Shown one piece after another: positions 4,327 through 53,312 of a DNA stretch of 64,000 nt. Positions within the stretch are counted from its first letter, which is position 1. Each line of letters starts with the position of its first letter. The notes beneath the pieces are model-generated. The model worked only from the letters and a program-made list of their open reading frames with translations. It was not told the DNA's origin and ran no database searches. Position numbers and translations under genes: made by a program. This stretch comes from Williamsia deligens (GTDB lineage: Bacteria > Actinomycetota > Actinomycetes > Mycobacteriales > Mycobacteriaceae): the NCBI RefSeq assembly GCF_024171765.1, contig NZ_JAMTCI010000001.1, positions 186,001 through 250,000 of the forward strand. Direction: 5' to 3'.

Positions 4327-5937
4327 GTGAGCATCGTCGAGCCCGTCGAGAAGGCCCGCCCGCGCGGGTCCGACGACCCGTCCGATCTGCTCGAGCTCTC
4401 CGGTCAGGCCGAGGACCTCGGCGCCCGTCCCGGCCCGTCGGTGCCGGATCCGGTCTTCGGTGCCACCGACACCCGGCGCGGATGGATCGTCGCGGCGGTC
4501 CTGACCGTCATCACGGCCATCACCCGCTTCTGGGGCCTGGGCCACCCGACCGACAACGGCACCCCGGTCTTCGACGAGAAGCACTACGTCCCGCAGGCAT
4601 GGCAGGTGCTCACCGGCGGCAACTGGATCGAGGACAACCCCGCCTACGGGCTCGTCGTGCACCCGCCCGTCGGCAAATGGGTGATCGCCCTCGGCGAGGC
4701 CATGTTCGGCTACACACCCGTCGGGTGGCGGTTCGCGTCCGCGGTGCTCGGCACGATCATGGTGCTCATCGTGTTCCGCCTCGCCCGGCGGTTGTCGCGG
4801 TCGACCCTGATCGGCGCCATCGCCGCGGTGTTCCTCATCTGCGACGGCGTGACCTTCGTGTCCTCGCGCGTCGGCATGCTCGACATCGTCCAGATCTTCT
4901 TCCTGCTCGCCGCGATGGCCACACTCGTCGCCGACCGCGACCAGATGCGCGCCCGCCTGCACCGTGTGTGGACGGAGGGACGGATCGCCGACTCACCGTT
5001 CGGACCGCGCCTCGGTTTCCGCTGGTGGCGATTCGCGACGGCGGTACTCCTCGGTCTGGGCTGCGCGACGAAGTGGTCGGGCATCTACTTCGTCGTCTTC
5101 TATCTGGTCTTCTCCCTCGGCTTCGACGTCGCCAACCGGCGCGCGTACCACGTGCAGCGCCCGTGGATGGGCACGCTGCGTCGCGACGTCGTCCCCGCGG
5201 GGTTCAGCCTCGGCGTGACCCCGATCCTGGTGTACCTGGCCAGTTTCGCGCCGTGGTTCGCCGGCGAGACGTCGGTGTACCGGTACGCGGTCGGCAACCA
5301 GGTCGGCTACGACGGCCCGTCCTCCTGGGTCCCCGGGGCGTGGCGGTCGCTGTGGTTCTACGAGGCCGGGATCCTGAAGTTCCACGAGGGTCTGACCAAC
5401 TCGGCGGGCAACCACCATCCGTGGGAGTCGAAGCCGTGGACGTGGCCCATGAGCCTGCGCCCGATGCTGTACGCCGTGCAGAACGGTCCCGACCAGTGCG
5501 GCGGCGGTCAGTGCATCCGCGTGCAGATGCTCATCGGGACCCCCGCCATGTGGTGGCTGGCCTTCCCGATGCTGCTGTGGGCGCTCTGGCGGTGGATCGC
5601 GCGACGCGACTGGCGCTACGGCGTCGTGCTCGTCGGCTACGGCGCAGCCTGGCTGCCCTGGTTCATGGAACTCGACCGCCAGATGTACTTCTTCTACGCC
5701 ACCGCGATGGCCCCGTTCCTGGTGATCGGGTTGGCGTTGTGCGTCGGCGACCTCCTCGGCGTCGACGGACGATGGCGTCGCTTCGGCCGCGAACGACGGA
5801 TGCTCGGCGTGGCGCTCGCGTCGGTCTACATCGGTCTGGTGATCACGAACTTCATCTGGATGTGGCCCATCCTGACCGGCGCACCGCTCTCGCTCCGGGA
5901 GTGGAACCTGCAGATGTGGCTGCCCAGCTGGCGCTGA
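4327..5937 (+). CDS. pmt: polyprenyl-phosphate-mannose--protein mannosyltransferase
   Basis: GT39 integral membrane enzyme (536 aa) that transfers mannose from polyprenyl-phosphate mannose to Ser/Thr of exported proteins, acting on the outer face of the cytoplasmic membrane. Support: the luminal acidic motif FDEKHYVPQ after the first membrane segment, about ten hydrophobic segments, WRFASAVLGT, and the C-terminal membrane block ending in LPSWR. Homologous in position and length to M. tuberculosis Rv1002c. GTG 4327 is chosen over 4321 because it sits at the predicted transcription start. The 3' end is followed by the dyad repeat array at 5950. Confidence 0.92.
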   Translation: MSIVEPVEKARPRGSDDPSDLLELSGQAEDLGARPGPSVPDPVFGATDTRRGWIVAAVLTVITAITRFWGLGHPTDNGTPVFDEKHYVPQAWQVLTGGNWIEDNPAYGLVVHPPVGKWVIALGEAMFGYTPVGWRFASAVLGTIMVLIVFRLARRLSRSTLIGAIAAVFLICDGVTFVSSRVGMLDIVQIFFLLAAMATLVADRDQMRARLHRVWTEGRIADSPFGPRLGFRWWRFATAVLLGLGCATKWSGIYFVVFYLVFSLGFDVANRRAYHVQRPWMGTLRRDVVPAGFSLGVTPILVYLASFAPWFAGETSVYRYAVGNQVGYDGPSSWVPGAWRSLWFYEAGILKFHEGLTNSAGNHHPWESKPWTWPMSLRPMLYAVQNGPDQCGGGQCIRVQMLIGTPAMWWLAFPMLLWALWRWIARRDWRYGVVLVGYGAAWLPWFMELDRQMYFFYATAMAPFLVIGLALCVGDLLGVDGRWRRFGRERRMLGVALASVYIGLVITNFIWMWPILTGAPLSLREWNLQMWLPSWR

Positions 5938-5949
5938 GCCCTCGTCGGT

Positions 5950-6104
5950 CGTCCGTTGGGCGGCTGGAGACGTCGGTTGGGCGGTTAGAGGCGTCGAGTG
6001 GGCGGTTAGAGGCGTCGAGTGGGCGGTTCGACCCACTTGACTCGTCAACCGCCCAGTCGACGCGTTCTAACGCCCACTCGACGTCGTCAACCGCCCACTC
6101 GACG
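5950..6104. repeat. 21-bp dyad repeat array, locus A (4 forward + 3 inverted units)
   Basis: Four units of 21 bp in one orientation (starting 5950, 5971, 5992, 6013; core CGTCGAGTGGGCGG followed by 7 variable bases), a 7-8 bp centre, then three units of the reverse complement (6042, 6063, 6084). The whole can fold as a long imperfect hairpin. It fills the gap between the convergent genes pmt and the secreted-protein gene. The same unit recurs at 19031 and 27803. The 21-bp step equals two helical turns. Function unknown; bidirectional termination or protein binding are the candidates. Confidence 0.9.
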
Positions 6105-6144
6105 CGTGGGTGGGGTCGCGGTCGCGGCCGGGGGCGGGGGTCGA

Positions 6145-6729
6145 TCAGTTCGGGATACGCCCGCGGAGCCTGTCGGTGGTGCCGACGTCGGAGGCGACGT
6201 AGATCTGGTCGAGGCTCGTCTGCACGTCGAAGAACGCGAGCGGCAGGTTCTTGAGCCGGTCGTCCTGGGTGCGGAACTCGACGCGGTTGCCCGCGTAGCG
6301 CATCGTCATCGTGACGATCTGGTTCTTGTCGGTGCCGACCGGGTTGAAGATCATCGGGCCGGTGAACGGCGTGCCCTTCCGGACCGGGAACCCATCGCGG
6401 GTCGGATCACCGCTCAGCGAGATCGCGGCCACCGACTGACCGGTCCCGCCTGTCACGTTGCGTGGCCCGTAGAGCAACACCGAGTACGTCGGGCCGTACC
6501 CGCGACCGAACCCGGCCGCCCCTCGGGTCACGAGGGTGACGTCGAGGCGACCGGTTCCACGGTCGTAGTCGACGGTGACCGACCGCAGGTCGACGCTGCC
6601 AGGAGCTGCCTTGATCGGCGACGGCACCGTCACCGATCCGGCCGACGCCGGCGTCACGCCGACCGCTGCGCCCGCTGCCACCAGGAGACCGGAGAGGGCT
6701 GTGACGGACCACCGAGCAGTGCGATGCAT
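6145..6729 (-). CDS. secreted protein of unknown function
   Basis: A 194-aa product with a typical Sec signal peptide: MHRTARWS, a hydrophobic stretch, then an AxA-type cleavage site near PASAGS (about residue 31). The mature part is beta-rich, with no Cys, no transmembrane segment and no catalytic motif I recognise. ATG 6729 was chosen because it follows a clear AGGAG ribosome site by 5 nt and starts the signal peptide; a longer frame to 6783 would put 18 polar residues before it. It stands alone, with the dyad repeat array A downstream and a BCCT transporter gene upstream. Confidence 0.75.
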   Translation of the reverse strand: MHRTARWSVTALSGLLVAAGAAVGVTPASAGSVTVPSPIKAAPGSVDLRSVTVDYDRGTGRLDVTLVTRGAAGFGRGYGPTYSVLLYGPRNVTGGTGQSVAAISLSGDPTRDGFPVRKGTPFTGPMIFNPVGTDKNQIVTMTMRYAGNRVEFRTQDDRLKNLPLAFFDVQTSLDQIYVASDVGTTDRLRGRIPN

Positions 6730-17655: not shown

Positions 17656-19050
17656 ATGACCACCGTCGACGCGCCCGTGCCCACGGTCGCCGCCCGACTG
17701 GACCGCCTGCCGGTGGTGCGCGCGCATCGCATCGCCACCGCGGTGATCGGGCTCGGCCTGTTCTTCGATCTCTACGAGAACTTCCTCGCAGCCACCATCT
17801 CCGGCGTCCTGCGGTCGGAACTGTCACTGGACCGCACCGGGCTGAACCTGCTCCTCGGATCGGCGTTCATCGGACAGTTCCTCGGCGCCGCCGTGATGGG
17901 TCGCTACGCCGACCGCGTCGGGAGACGGCGGGCGTTCATGATCAACCTCGCCGTCTACTCGTTCTTCTCGCTGCTGGGCGCCTTCTCCCCCAACGCGGCG
18001 TTCCTGGTGGTGACGAGGTTCATCGCGGGTGTGGGCATCGGTGCCGAGTTCGCCCTCGCCGACTCCTACCTCTCCGACCTGCTGCCCAAGAACGCCCGCG
18101 GACGGATGATCTCGTGGGCCTACACCGTCGCGTTCTTCGGCGTCCCGGTGGTCGGGCTGCTCGCGCGCTGGCTGGTCCCGCTGCAGCCGTTCGGCGTCGA
18201 CGGTTGGCGGTGGCTGTTCGTGCTCGGCGGTCTCGGCTCGTTCGCGGTGTGGGTGGTACGCCGTGGACTGCCCGAGTCACCCCGCTGGTTGGAGGCGCAG
18301 GGCCGCCACGACGAGGCCGACGCGATCTGTCGGCGCTTCGAGGACCAGGCGATCGCCGCGGGACACCAGCTCGCCGAACCCGACCGCACCCTGGTGGTCA
18401 CCCCGACCCGCGCTGTCGGTGTGCGGGCGTTGTTCCGGCCGCCGCTGACACGTCGCACCACGATGCTGTGGATCCTGTCGGTGCTGGAGGTGTTCGGCTA
18501 CTACGGTTTCGGCACCCTCGCCCCGATCGTTCTGCTGGACAAGGGCTTCGACCTGGTGACGTCCCTGGGGTTCCTGGCCGCGACCTACTTCGGCTACCCG
18601 CTCGGCTCGATCCTCGCCGTGCCCATCGTGGAACGCATCGAACGGAAGTGGCTGGTGATCGGCTCCGCCGGGGCGATGGCGGCGTTCGGACTCTGGTTCG
18701 GGTTCGCCGGGGCCGCGTGGGCGATCGTCGTCTCCGGGGTGCTGTACACGATGGCGAGCAACCTGTTCTCCAACGCGTACCACGTGTATCTCGCCGACTC
18801 GTACCCGACGGCGATCCGCGGCACCGCGGCCGGTGCCGCGTACTCGCTGTCGAAACTGACGACCGGCGTGCTGCCGTTCATCCTGCTGCCGTTCCTCGAC
18901 GCGAACGGTGCGGGCCCGGTGTTCGCGCTCGTCGCCGCGGTGATGCTCGCGCTGATGGTGAACGTCGGGGTGCTCGGACACCGCAGCACAGGGCTCTCGG
19001 CCGACGCGGCGGTCATCGACAGTCGCCATCCGCCCACTCGACGCGATTAG
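17656..19050 (+). CDS. MFS transporter (sugar/metabolite porter type)
   Basis: A 464-aa twelve-segment major facilitator. Segment 1 reads LGLFFDLYENFL, loop 2-3 carries MGRYADRVGRRRAF, segment 4-5 FIAGVGIGAEFALADSYLSDLLP, and the central loop PESPRWLEAQGRHDEAD matches the PESPRWL signature of sugar-porter-like and metabolite/H+ symporters. Substrate unknown. The last six codons (PPTRRD) and the TAG stop are encoded inside the first 21-bp unit of dyad repeat array B, so the array has intruded on, or replaced, the original end of the gene. Confidence 0.9.
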   Translation: MTTVDAPVPTVAARLDRLPVVRAHRIATAVIGLGLFFDLYENFLAATISGVLRSELSLDRTGLNLLLGSAFIGQFLGAAVMGRYADRVGRRRAFMINLAVYSFFSLLGAFSPNAAFLVVTRFIAGVGIGAEFALADSYLSDLLPKNARGRMISWAYTVAFFGVPVVGLLARWLVPLQPFGVDGWRWLFVLGGLGSFAVWVVRRGLPESPRWLEAQGRHDEADAICRRFEDQAIAAGHQLAEPDRTLVVTPTRAVGVRALFRPPLTRRTTMLWILSVLEVFGYYGFGTLAPIVLLDKGFDLVTSLGFLAATYFGYPLGSILAVPIVERIERKWLVIGSAGAMAAFGLWFGFAGAAWAIVVSGVLYTMASNLFSNAYHVYLADSYPTAIRGTAAGAAYSLSKLTTGVLPFILLPFLDANGAGPVFALVAAVMLALMVNVGVLGHRSTGLSADAAVIDSRHPPTRRD

Positions 19051-19157
19051 CCGCCCACTCGACGCCCTGACCCCGTCGACTGGGCGGTTAAGAACGTCGA
19101 GTGGGCGGTTGGAGACGTCGAGTGGGCGGGTGGAGACGTCGAGTGGGCGGGTGCGAC
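19031..19157. repeat. 21-bp dyad repeat array, locus B (2 inverted + 4 forward units)
   Basis: Units start at 19031, 19052 (22 bp), 19074, 19095, 19116 and 19137. The first two are in the reverse orientation (CGCCCACTCGACG core), the last four forward (CGTCGAGTGGGCGG core), so the blocks point outward, opposite to loci A and C. The first unit supplies the last codons and stop of the upstream MFS gene. The next gene downstream is on the same strand, so this copy is not strictly between convergent genes. Confidence 0.9.
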
Positions 19158-26985: not shown

Positions 26986-27789
26986 ATGGCCGAGACACCG
27001 CGCGACCACGGCGATCCCGGTGACGCACCGTCGGTGCCGTCGCCGCTGACCGCACCGATCAACCCGGTCCGTCCGAGTGCGGCGGAGGAGGCGCGGACCA
27101 TCGCGGCGTCGACGAACACCGCGACGCTCGCGACCCTCACCGCCGACGGCGACCCCTGGGCGTCGTACGTGACGTTCGGTCTGCTCGGTGGCGATCCGGT
27201 GCTGTGCGTGTCCCACATGGCCGAGCACGGACGCAACCTCGCGTCGGATCCGCGTGCGAGCCTGGCCGTCGTCGCACCGACATCCGACACCGATCCCCTC
27301 GCGGGCAGTCGGATCACGCTGGCGGGCCGCGTCGCGAAGCCCGTTCGCGACGAGTACGCCGCCGCGCGCACCGCACACCTCGCCGCCGTGCCGGCCGCGA
27401 GGTATTACGTCGACTACAGCGACTTCACGCTGTGGGTGCTGCACGTCGACCGCGTGCGGTGGGTGGGCGGATACGGGCGGATGGACTCGGCCACCGGAGC
27501 GGATTACGCGGCGGCACAGCCCGATCCGGTCGCGCCGCTGTCGGCTCCTGCCGTCGAGCACCTCAACGCCGACCACGCCGACTCGCTGGTGGCGATGGCC
27601 GGGGCGTTCGGCGGGTTCCCCGACGCGACCGCGGCCACGTGCACGGCGGCCGATCGCTACGGACTCGACCTCAAGGTGACGACGCCGCGCGGGATCGCGT
27701 ACACCCGCGTCGGGTACGCGTCGCCGATCGACGGCATCGACGACCTCCGCGCCGCGACAGTCGATCTCGCCCGCCGCGCCCGCTCCTGA
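26986..27789 (+). CDS. HugZ-like FMN-binding split-barrel protein with DUF2470
   Basis: A 267-aa protein: residues 30-170 form a pyridoxamine-phosphate-oxidase-like split barrel (TNTATLATLTADGDPWASYVTF, HGRNLASDPRASLAVV, RVRWVGGYGRM), and residues 180-262 a DUF2470-type helical domain (PAVEHLNADHADSLVAMAGAF with conserved HLNADH). This two-domain layout is shared with the heme-degrading HugZ family and with plastid/actinobacterial homologues of unknown activity. A strong ribosome site (AGGAGGA) precedes ATG 26986. It is co-transcribed with the flavoprotein gene upstream; the dyad repeat array C follows. Confidence 0.87.
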   Translation: MAETPRDHGDPGDAPSVPSPLTAPINPVRPSAAEEARTIAASTNTATLATLTADGDPWASYVTFGLLGGDPVLCVSHMAEHGRNLASDPRASLAVVAPTSDTDPLAGSRITLAGRVAKPVRDEYAAARTAHLAAVPAARYYVDYSDFTLWVLHVDRVRWVGGYGRMDSATGADYAAAQPDPVAPLSAPAVEHLNADHADSLVAMAGAFGGFPDATAATCTAADRYGLDLKVTTPRGIAYTRVGYASPIDGIDDLRAATVDLARRARS

Positions 27790-27802: not shown

Positions 27803-27982
27803 CGTCGAGTGGGCGTTTGGAGACGTCGAGTGGGCGTCTGTGTACGTCGAGTGGGCGTTCGACGACGAGCCGACGCCTCCAACCGCCCAATCGACGTCTC
27901 CAACCGCCCAACCGACGTCTGTAAGCGCCCAACCGACGTCTGTAAGCGCCCAACCGACGTCTCCAACCGCCCACCCGACGAG
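27803..27982. repeat. 21-bp dyad repeat array, locus C (3 forward + 5 inverted units)
   Basis: Forward units at 27803, 27824 and 27845 (CGTCGAGTGGGCG core), a 5-bp centre, then inverted units at 27871, 27892, 27913, 27934 and 27955, each exactly 21 bp. The units at 27913 and 27934 are identical, which points to recent tandem duplication. The array lies between the convergent HugZ-like and LemA genes. Because 21 is a multiple of 3 the frames stay open, giving a spurious heptad-repeat ORF on the minus strand. Confidence 0.9.
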
Positions 27983-28012: not shown

Positions 28013-28576
28013 TCAGAAGCTGACGGTCGGCGGCGCCTGCTGACCCTCAGGGGCCTTGTAGAACTCCCGGCGACCGACCTTGGCGACTCCGGAGAAGAAC
28101 ATCCACGGGATCGTCGAGACCAGGGTGTTGAGCGTGCTCACGGCGTCGTTGTAGTACTGGCGGGCGAACGAGATCTGGTTCTCGGTGTCGGCGAGCTGCC
28201 GCTGCAGGTCGAGGAAACCGCTGTCCGCCTTGAGATCCGGGTACGCCTCGGCGACGGCCATCACGTCGACGAGCGCCTTCTGCAACTGGGCGTCGGCGGC
28301 GGCCTTCTCCGGCACCGCACCACCCTGCGCGGCGGAGGCGACGCGCGACCGCGCCTCGGTCACGGCCTCGAGGACGCCCTTCTCGTGCGATGCGTAGCCC
28401 TTCACCGTGTTGACCAGGTTCGGGATCAGGTCCGCGCGGCGGGTCAGCTGGACGTCGATGCCGCCGAGCGCCTCCTGTGCCCCGATGTCGGCCTTGCGCA
28501 GCTTGTTGAAGCCGACGACGCCGGCGATCACCAGCAGCACGACGATGACGACGATCACGATCACCGCGATCAGCAT
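28013..28576 (-). CDS. LemA family protein
   Basis: A 187-aa membrane-anchored protein: one N-terminal transmembrane helix (residues 2-24), then a long helical bundle with the LemA hallmarks NKLRKADIGAQEALGGIDVQLTRRADLIPNLVNTVKGYA and ENQISFARQYYNDAVSTLNT, ending in FYKAPEGQQAPPTVSF. The function of LemA proteins is not well defined. ATG 28576 has GGAGGA upstream. It follows the DUF2207 gene by 19 bp, a pairing common across bacteria, and the two products likely act together at the membrane. Confidence 0.93.
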   Translation of the reverse strand: MLIAVIVIVVIVVLLVIAGVVGFNKLRKADIGAQEALGGIDVQLTRRADLIPNLVNTVKGYASHEKGVLEAVTEARSRVASAAQGGAVPEKAAADAQLQKALVDVMAVAEAYPDLKADSGFLDLQRQLADTENQISFARQYYNDAVSTLNTLVSTIPWMFFSGVAKVGRREFYKAPEGQQAPPTVSF

Positions 28577-30471: not shown

Positions 30472-30547
30472 GGGGCTATAGCGCAGTTGGTAGCGCGTCT
30501 CGTTCGCATCGAGAAGGTCGGGAGTTCGATTCTCCCTAGCTCCACCA
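30472..30547 (+). tRNA. tRNA-Ala(CGC)
   Basis: A 76-nt cloverleaf including an encoded CCA. Acceptor GGGGCTA pairs with TAGCTCC; the G3-U70 wobble pair that marks tRNA-Ala is present. D arm GCGC/GCGC with AGTTGGTA loop; anticodon stem TCTCG/CGAGA with loop TTCGCAT, anticodon CGC reading GCG; T arm GGGAG-TTCGATT-CTCCC. Bases 30506-30526 are duplicated exactly at 32486, marking use of this gene as an integration site. Confidence 0.97.
30506..30526 (+). repeat. left att repeat (inside tRNA-Ala)
   Basis: GCATCGAGAAGGTCGGGAGT followed by T, running from the anticodon loop into the T arm. Identical to 32486-32506. The intact tRNA end is here, so this is the side that restores the gene. Confidence 0.75.
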
Positions 30548-53147: not shown

Positions 53148-53312
53148 CGGCTGGCAGGTCTTCGGACTCATGGGCGAGCGCTGACGCGCACCTACTGGTC
53201 GACGCTTCCCGGGCATGGGGCCCAGTGCTGTTGCCGACGGTCGTTCCCACTCACCGCTGCGGGACAGTCCCGGATTCCCACCGGGTTCCCTCTCGCGGGG
53301 GTCCTGCCGGTC
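53148..53312 (-). ncRNA. cobalamin riboswitch controlling metE
   Basis: On the minus strand, GGCAGG at the 5' end (53308-53303) can pair with CCTGCC at the 3' end (53158-53153). Between lie the conserved GGTGGGAATCCGGGACTGTCCCGC core, a CGGTGAG segment, and the B12 box AGTCCGAAGACCTGCC near 53153-53168. A leader of about 200 nt follows before the metE ATG, in which the expression platform must lie; I could not settle whether it acts on termination or on ribosome access. Sequence 53313-53606 shows no gene and holds the divergent promoters. Confidence 0.88.

Follow-up and report, generated by a model that had tools for sequence, protein, structure and literature searches.

The three arrays of 21-bp units in the window (the whole 64,000-nucleotide stretch of Williamsia deligens DNA analysed here) are probably scattered copies, lacking the gene, of a repeat family, F1, in a REP/RAYT-like partnership with an unrelated enzyme, an AbiEi-DUF559 nuclease that would bind and cut them, copying being left to repair. 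F1 arrays are associated with the gene for this nuclease, lie at gene 3′ ends and are built to a regular geometry, and their bracketing of the gene suggests a bacterial repeat-and-enzyme partnership of a type that is new. Throughout, F1 denotes the family of the window arrays, and F2, F3, F5, F6 and F7 denote families with other cores.

The window belongs to a 4.41-Mb genome in 9 contigs (G000), in which genes were called by a small codon-usage gene finder written for this analysis, with no annotation used. The F1 unit consists of a 13-bp core, CGTCGANTGGGCG (base 7 variable), and an 8-bp linker; this describes it better than the core plus 7 variable bases of an earlier, sequence-only reading, which was right that the core is conserved. 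Inside each block of loci A, B and C (Table 1) the units step by exactly 21 bp, as that reading had claimed for every unit, but the junction from + to − units has spacings of its own. At locus A, the four forward and three inverted units described earlier are indeed present, with + units at 5950, 5971, 5992 and 6013 that depart from the 13-bp core at 3, 2, 0 and 0 positions, − cores at 6050, 6071 and 6092 (1, 0 and 0 mismatches) and a core-to-core spacer of 24 bp (6026-6049), last + linker included. The same design had been announced at 19031 and 27803, and arrays do stand at both places; at locus B, however, the blocks are reversed and face outward (− then +), and the first − unit extends over the end of the upstream gene, stop codon included. 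This transporter-like gene thus takes its final codons and its stop from the first unit itself (19031-19050); in the locus B counterpart of two relatives, the stop lies inside the first linker, ahead of the first core. An Rfam scan of the window matched a cobalamin riboswitch (53156-53291, −) and a tRNA-Ala (CGC) (30472-30547, +) and, beyond these, nothing, the arrays included.

Table 1. Array loci A, B and C and their neighbouring genes, in window positions.
Feature	Positions	Strand	Remarks
Gene upstream of locus A	4327..5937	+	own gene call; ends 12 bp before the array
Locus A forward block	5950..6033	+	four 21-bp units, 12 bp past the stop codon of the 4327-5937 gene
Locus A inter-block stretch	6034..6049	.	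last + unit to first − core
Locus A inverted block	6050..6104	−	three cores, 21-bp steps
Gene downstream of locus A, convergent	6145..6681	−	own gene call
Transporter-like gene (by eye)	17656..19050	+	last codons come from the first locus B unit
Locus B inverted block	19031..19064	−	two cores; runs into the 3′ end of the 17656-19050 gene
Locus B forward block	19074..19149	+	four cores, 21-bp steps
Gene upstream of locus C	26986..27789	+	own gene call
Locus C forward block	27803..27857	+	three cores, 21-bp steps; 13 bp past the stop codon of the 26986-27789 gene
Locus C inverted block	27884..27980	−	five cores, 21-bp steps
Gene convergent on locus C, which we take to be LemA-like	28013..28576	−	own gene call

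The F1 core is overrepresented both locally and genome-wide. In the window, 81 sites match the 14-base core with at most 3 mismatches, against 49.2 expected and a maximum of 65 in 100 shuffles, and in the whole genome exact 13-base cores number 92 versus 6 for the reversed pattern used as a control. A scan of one genome per species (84,980 species, the window's own genome possibly absent) returned 54 stretches with a strict core pair, all from Williamsia or Gordonia. Among 301 genomes of the family, F1 pairs were found in 15, comprising 7 of 8 in the window's genus (G000 included) and 8 of 29 in genus g9, taken as Gordonia, and the reversed control pattern formed no pairs in any of the 301. 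Pair matches reach 38 in G004, which like G006 and G007 is a genus mate of G000, and 11 in G003. The F2 repeat, CAGTTGGGCA, also of 21 bp, gave 55, 64, 51 and 18 pair matches in G001, G002, G003 and G005, respectively, and no match in any of the remaining 297 genomes of the search, which include G000, G004, G006 and G007. A phage or plasmid element was considered and rejected, strict F1 pairs being found in no viral contig. Arrays range in length from 2 to 12 units, and some are unusual in their setting: an F1 array at L048 (1970-2053) lies within a long open frame that resembles an adenylation-domain gene (by eye), where the 21-bp unit would read as a 7-residue repeat; around 3330-3420 of L284 an F2 array encloses an F1 dyad between its + and − blocks (by eye); and array L047 of G000 has two F5 units amid F1 units.

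Placement was analyzed for 114 F1 clusters in loci from seven genomes, of which 57 lie in convergent, 46 in tandem and 7 in divergent gaps, while 4 are at a contig edge or have no called neighbour. A gene 3′ end is at most 60 bp away in 91 of the 114 clusters (median, 10 bp). Background gaps of at least 60 bp (n = 151), from 20 stretches of 20 kb in G000 whose positions were picked by the analyst, were convergent in 11 cases, tandem in 80 and divergent in 60. The convergent excess (57 of 110 array clusters from seven genomes versus 11 of 151 background gaps from G000; Fisher p 3e-16) is drawn from clusters that include orthologous sites and other genomes, so that not all are independent and the background is not fully matched. 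The repeat is hence not confined to three places, it is enriched at gene ends, and its spacing is kept in other genomes, three points on which the sequence-only reading had made a functional system depend. Two further proposals were discarded. A Rho site would show a C-rich preference, and none was seen, tandem single-block arrays being G-rich on the sense strand in 23 of 34 cases and C-rich in 11; a strict sense-orientation rule was kept by 10 of 12 tandem single-block arrays in G000, G004 and G007 but by only 23 of 34 overall.

Array sites turn over between species, with sharing judged here among fetched loci. In G000, 19 of 24 arrays adjoin the same genes in G004 or G007. Only 2 of 24 G006 arrays are common to another genome (22 unshared), and 2 of 21 G235 arrays are shared, one of them with another Gordonia (19 unshared). 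Since close species have many sites in common, movement is infrequent. The 3′ end of a gene that we take to encode a thiolase carries, by eye, arrays with different cores, or none, depending on the species. Furthermore, an array of F5 (CGTTCGTTGGGC type) replaces F1 at locus A in G004 and at locus C in G007; species swap F1 and F5 cores at one site, and a site can therefore outlive its core sequence. Comparison at these two loci yielded no empty site, both being filled by the F5 arrays, and neither an empty site nor a target duplication was seen. At locus C of G007 (L311, about 1491-2642), a DUF222/HNH-like gene (by eye) separates the LemA-like gene from the F5 array.

The candidate partner gene lies outside the window, at G000:C1:815612-816463 (locus L036), with inverted F1 arrays on both sides. 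F1 arrays also flank the gene at L151, whose place is that of L099 as well, and at L220, and in L183 its upstream side has two degenerate F1 units only. The L036 protein joins an AbiEi-like N-terminal part to a REase_MTES_1575/DUF559 C-terminal part (Pfam, PADLOC), its own Pfam matches lying below the curated cut-off; sequence relatives of the C-terminal part in the PDB are 3hrl (E 2.3e-5) and, weakly, 3r3p (E 0.061), a mobile-intron protein. Domain scans, which took in 52 of the 67 readable family members, matched the PADLOC AbiEi profile in 49, MTES_1575 in 43 and DUF559 in 32, with weak matches to NCBIfam anti-phage models in 12 and 5 of the 52. Residues E189, Q207 and D222 are invariant in all 52 members and are the putative catalytic residues of the nuclease. 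No AbiEii gene was found beside the L036 gene, the one locus examined in this respect; the neighbours are transporter-like and peptidase-like, presumably a transporter and a prolyl oligopeptidase. A phage origin of the partner gene was rejected, its protein matching no phage record (E 1e-8), and so was a plasmid origin, the single match to a "plasmid" record (E 1e-15) being to one of 11.85 Mb, which is chromosome-sized.

L036 is one of a larger family in which each paralogue has its own repeat. A profile built from six members and run over eight genomes matched 53 times; 18 matches were strong (340-506 bits), and the others scored 108 bits or less. Of the 18, 7 were already known as array-flanked, and the other 11 were then read. 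All 18 strong members are flanked on either side by repeat copies that step by 21 or 22 bp, with a separate core for each paralogue (by script or eye), the cores being F1, F2, F3 (CCGANCGTGCC), F5, F6 (CCCACCGTGCGGTAGATCC type) and F7 (GTGTTGGGCC). Among 57 further genomes, 26 had a family match at E<=1e-40, spread over 14 of 29 genera. In 30 further loci (L327-L331 read in part), the strong members among those listed carry arrays, on one side only at L323, and several weaker members have a palindrome on each side in place of an array. Most weak paralogues at L345-L364 are likewise bracketed, by eye, by palindromes or mixed repeats rather than 21-bp arrays, and three of them adjoin what appears to be one and the same tRNA gene. 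G004 and G003 have F1 arrays, yet no F1-bracketed gene was found among their strong members. Repeat similarity correlates weakly with protein similarity (rho 0.13 for the N-terminal part, Mantel p 0.03, and 0.26 for the C-terminal part), tracking the C-terminal part more closely although binding would be expected of the N-terminal one. Both observations speak against a tight partnership.

Bracketing was quantified with a flank score, the best local alignment between the 400 bp before a gene and the reverse complement of the 400 bp after it, for members classed as strong (>300 bits), intermediate (150-241 bits) or weak paralogues. A score of at least 44 was reached by 36 of 38 strong members and by 29 of the 31 that came from the protein profile only, a set that leaves out the 7 known beforehand because they lay between arrays; the two strong genes that failed are L323, at a contig edge, and L341, whose reading-frame end is doubtful. 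Intermediate members scored at least 32 in 7 of 10 cases and at least 44 in 4, weak paralogues at least 35 in 17 of 20 and at least 44 in 12, and three members of each of these two classes had no bracket. The first control comprised 543 genes, of which 10 scored at least 40, all 10 in loci fetched for holding arrays. Because these high scorers lay in array loci, a second control was set up with 204 other G000 genes, from 400 kb that hold no F1 array, and here none reached 44, two reached 35 and six reached 32. Against the second control, Fisher p was 4e-35 for the 31 strong members, 1e-20 for the weak and 5e-8 for the intermediate ones, rough values given that orthologues and other genomes are included.

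The repeats around the family genes also lead back to the window. Brackets of the six family genes of G000 were searched against 182 intergenic gaps of that genome, taken from the 20 stretches of 20 kb and the window. The F1 bracket of L036 placed the three window arrays on top (scores of 119, 86 and 85; next, 31), whereas each of three other brackets picked out one gap: 73 (next, 36) for an F5-like bracket, 85 (next, 28) for an F6 bracket and 83 (next, 35) for that of one weak paralogue. The brackets of the remaining two genes gave nothing clear in the 182 gaps. Likely solo copies were seen in the control stretches at L388 (14616-14849, F6), L394 (10123-10507, F5-like) and L399 (10766-11183, a palindromic family).

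The geometry of the arrays is more constant than their sequence, in that linkers vary between genomes and the core and the 21-bp step are kept. At 33 F1 +/− junctions, the core-to-core distance was 25 bp in 18, 24 or 26 bp in 5, 14-16 bp in 4, 4-6 bp in 3, and 11, 36 and 113 bp in one each; no conserved sequence was found in the centre of the 25-bp junctions across all 18. F2 junctions have the same spacings as F1 when both are measured from the common TGGGC. In a phase test on 27 junctions, namely 17 groups of orthologous F1 sites (one member each) and 10 F2 loci chosen by the analyst for having both blocks, with their orthology unchecked, the best-fitting period was 10.5 bp, with R=0.85 (against 0.84 for both 10.25 and 10.75) and nearly equal phases in F1 and F2 (6.3 and 6.9); the test omits one F1 junction, which measures 115 bp from TGGGC to TGGGC, as well as the 10 of 20 F2 loci whose blocks are more than 80 bp apart. 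The Rayleigh p of about 4e-9, for which periods were scanned without correction, is too small if the arrays descend by copying from a few, though two classes one turn apart persist in both F1 and F2. The sequence-only reading had taken the 21-bp step for two helical turns and a cooperatively binding protein for its likely cause, a suggestion that gains support from junctions that also differ by one turn.

The linkers of opposed blocks at the same locus showed no excess of complementarity in three genomes (permutation p 1.00, 0.95 and 0.97), and linker identity is 0.63-0.79 inside a block versus 0.47-0.59 between blocks of one locus. Since the junctions step by turns and the linkers are not complementary in excess, a protein on duplex DNA appears favoured over a selected RNA hairpin. 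In the hairpin account, transcribed opposed blocks would fold and so end both convergent transcripts or protect the mRNA 3′ end, for which the closeness of most clusters to a 3′ end speaks, as does a predicted fold of −143 kcal/mol for the + strand of locus A, computed without a shuffle control. However, because the linkers of + and − blocks are no more alike within a locus than across loci, full pairing does not seem to have been selected. Single-orientation arrays are numerous, helical-turn steps are not expected of a loop length, and at L035/L168 a terminator-like hairpin (by eye) already precedes the array; locus A, scanned over 5800-6300, also differs from an intrinsic terminator in having no stem plus T run. 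The hairpin or bidirectional terminator, which the sequence-only reading had listed among its options, was dropped as the main reading on the linker test, the single-orientation arrays and the phase, and we regard this account as unlikely.

A bound protein might instead be useful to the host as a roadblock, by halting convergent transcription, insulating it or fixing supercoiling, with the nuclease partner acting as a binder only. Both the convergent excess and the 21-bp and turn-sized phasing would suit such a role, and loci A and C each keep an array with another core (F5) in one sister species, as if needed; on the other hand, invariant putative nuclease residues would be superfluous for a pure roadblock, and the many unshared arrays of G006 and G235 indicate that most sites differ between distant species, and we consider this explanation rather doubtful. 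Self-marking for defence, whereby the nuclease would spare, or be held by, array-bearing DNA and attack incoming DNA, could draw on the AbiEi profiles and weak anti-phage matches noted above, but no AbiEii partner toxin stands beside L036, among its transporter-like and peptidase-like neighbours, and we judge it improbable. Plain slippage repeats, formed without an enzyme and tolerated at 3′ ends, would fit the local duplication suggested by the greater likeness of linkers inside blocks, but this does not account for one core recurring unchanged at dozens of unlinked loci, for the junction phase or for the bracketing of one gene family, and it is very hard to credit. The small mobile repeat, also among the options named earlier, has in its favour the dispersed copies and the bracketed enzyme gene. 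Under the partnership of F1 with the nuclease, which we prefer, the AbiEi-like part would bind the 21-bp units cooperatively, as an array in helical phase, as we infer by analogy. The nuclease part would nick or cut at array sites, and repair would then copy, lengthen and homogenise the arrays and seed new ones. Gene 3′ ends may be the best-tolerated sites for this, or may be useful as transcription roadblocks.

The closest parallel is with REPs that carry a GTAG tag and their RAYT (TnpA_REP) enzymes, described in one study as short dispersed repeats, mostly downstream of genes, that also flank the cognate enzyme gene (PMC3733652). F1 resembles them in its dispersed, mostly 3′-end and often opposed repeats in convergent and tandem gaps, and in a cognate enzyme gene bracketed by inverted repeat copies. 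In contrast, RAYT is an HUH (Y1) tyrosine transposase, whereas the enzyme here is an AbiEi-like protein with an MTES_1575/DUF559 nuclease part, and the F1 unit (CGTCGANTGGGCG + 8 bp) is a non-palindromic tandem repeat of 21-22 bp, without internal stem or GTAG tag (by eye), palindromes standing beside some relatives only. The earlier remark that the arrays resemble no known REP family holds for the repeat unit, whereas the layout is REP/RAYT-like; the partner gene lies outside the window and so was out of that reading's sight. The same source describes CGTC REPs of other phyla as 8-9 bp stem-loops apparently without a dedicated transposase (PMC3733652). These share with F1 the 3′-end, often head-to-head arrangement, and the F1 unit starts with CGTC, but it has no stem; Gordonia, Rhodococcus and Mycobacterium are not named in the main text of that study, though M. 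tuberculosis is. AbiEi and Rv2827c are described in another study as binding 23-bp inverted repeats spaced by 3 and 13 bp (PMC7319586), a likeness both in the AbiEi-like protein and in opposed repeat pairs whose spacing differs by 10 bp; the operators of those AbiE type IV toxin-antitoxin systems, however, are confined to a single promoter, whereas F1 arrays are scattered over gene 3′ ends and the protein has a nuclease part. The C-terminal part resembles DUF559/Vsr-like nucleases (PDB 3hrl, 3r3p) by sequence match. CRISPR arrays differ in their unique, repeat-length spacers, the 8-bp linkers here being alike within a block. No report of these arrays or of DUF559 genes with repeats was found in the open-access literature searched. 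Because the REP/RAYT enzyme and unit and the CGTC stem do not fit and the layout is shared, F1 arrays and their nuclease are best read, on sequence grounds, as a new kind of system that would function like REP/RAYT.

DUF559 genes of other phyla show related arrangements. An E. coli YcjD query matched 33 records of a plasmid collection at E<=1e-10, and in 12 of these records plus E. coli the inverted flank score was at least 44 for 7 of 13 DUF559 genes; of the rest, read by eye, two are also flanked on both sides and four on one side only, E. coli included. In five 50-kb stretches, the DUF559 gene was repeat-bracketed by annotated ends in four, and in the fifth (Sphingomonas) only with the start taken from the match instead of the annotation, compared with 0 of 214 other genes, in a small sample of partly related strains with motifs chosen from the flanks themselves. 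Many of the REP-like repeats beside or around these genes (L365-L377, E. coli ycjD and 12 DUF559 genes) are of the CCCTCTCCC...GGGAGAGGG kind; E. coli ycjD has one such repeat, on the fabI side, which we take to be Box C. The E. coli fabI-sapF interval is variable, with at least 80% of a 1201-base ycjD query covered in 3330 of 5426 genomes, and two strains without the ycjD region carry efflux genes there, which is uninformative on movement. It is an evenly balanced question whether DUF559-type nucleases as a whole are repeat-associated, each gene lying between copies of its own REP-like repeat seeded at gene 3′ ends across phyla. They would then be a second, independent counterpart of RAYT and candidate enzymes for CGTC-type and similar REPs, the link between CGTC REPs and DUF559 being a lead only.

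Two old unknowns meet in this system, namely what spreads and keeps 3′-end repeats in bacteria and what role the common DUF559-type genes play. If the partnership is true, the flanks of each DUF559-type gene would name its target, and many DNA-binding specificities would become readable from genomes and open to testing. The F1-to-F5 swaps at loci A and C offer natural experiments on the joint evolution of a DNA-binding protein and its sites, and a non-HUH enzyme would be added to the means by which tiny repeats are known to populate the chromosomes of bacteria.
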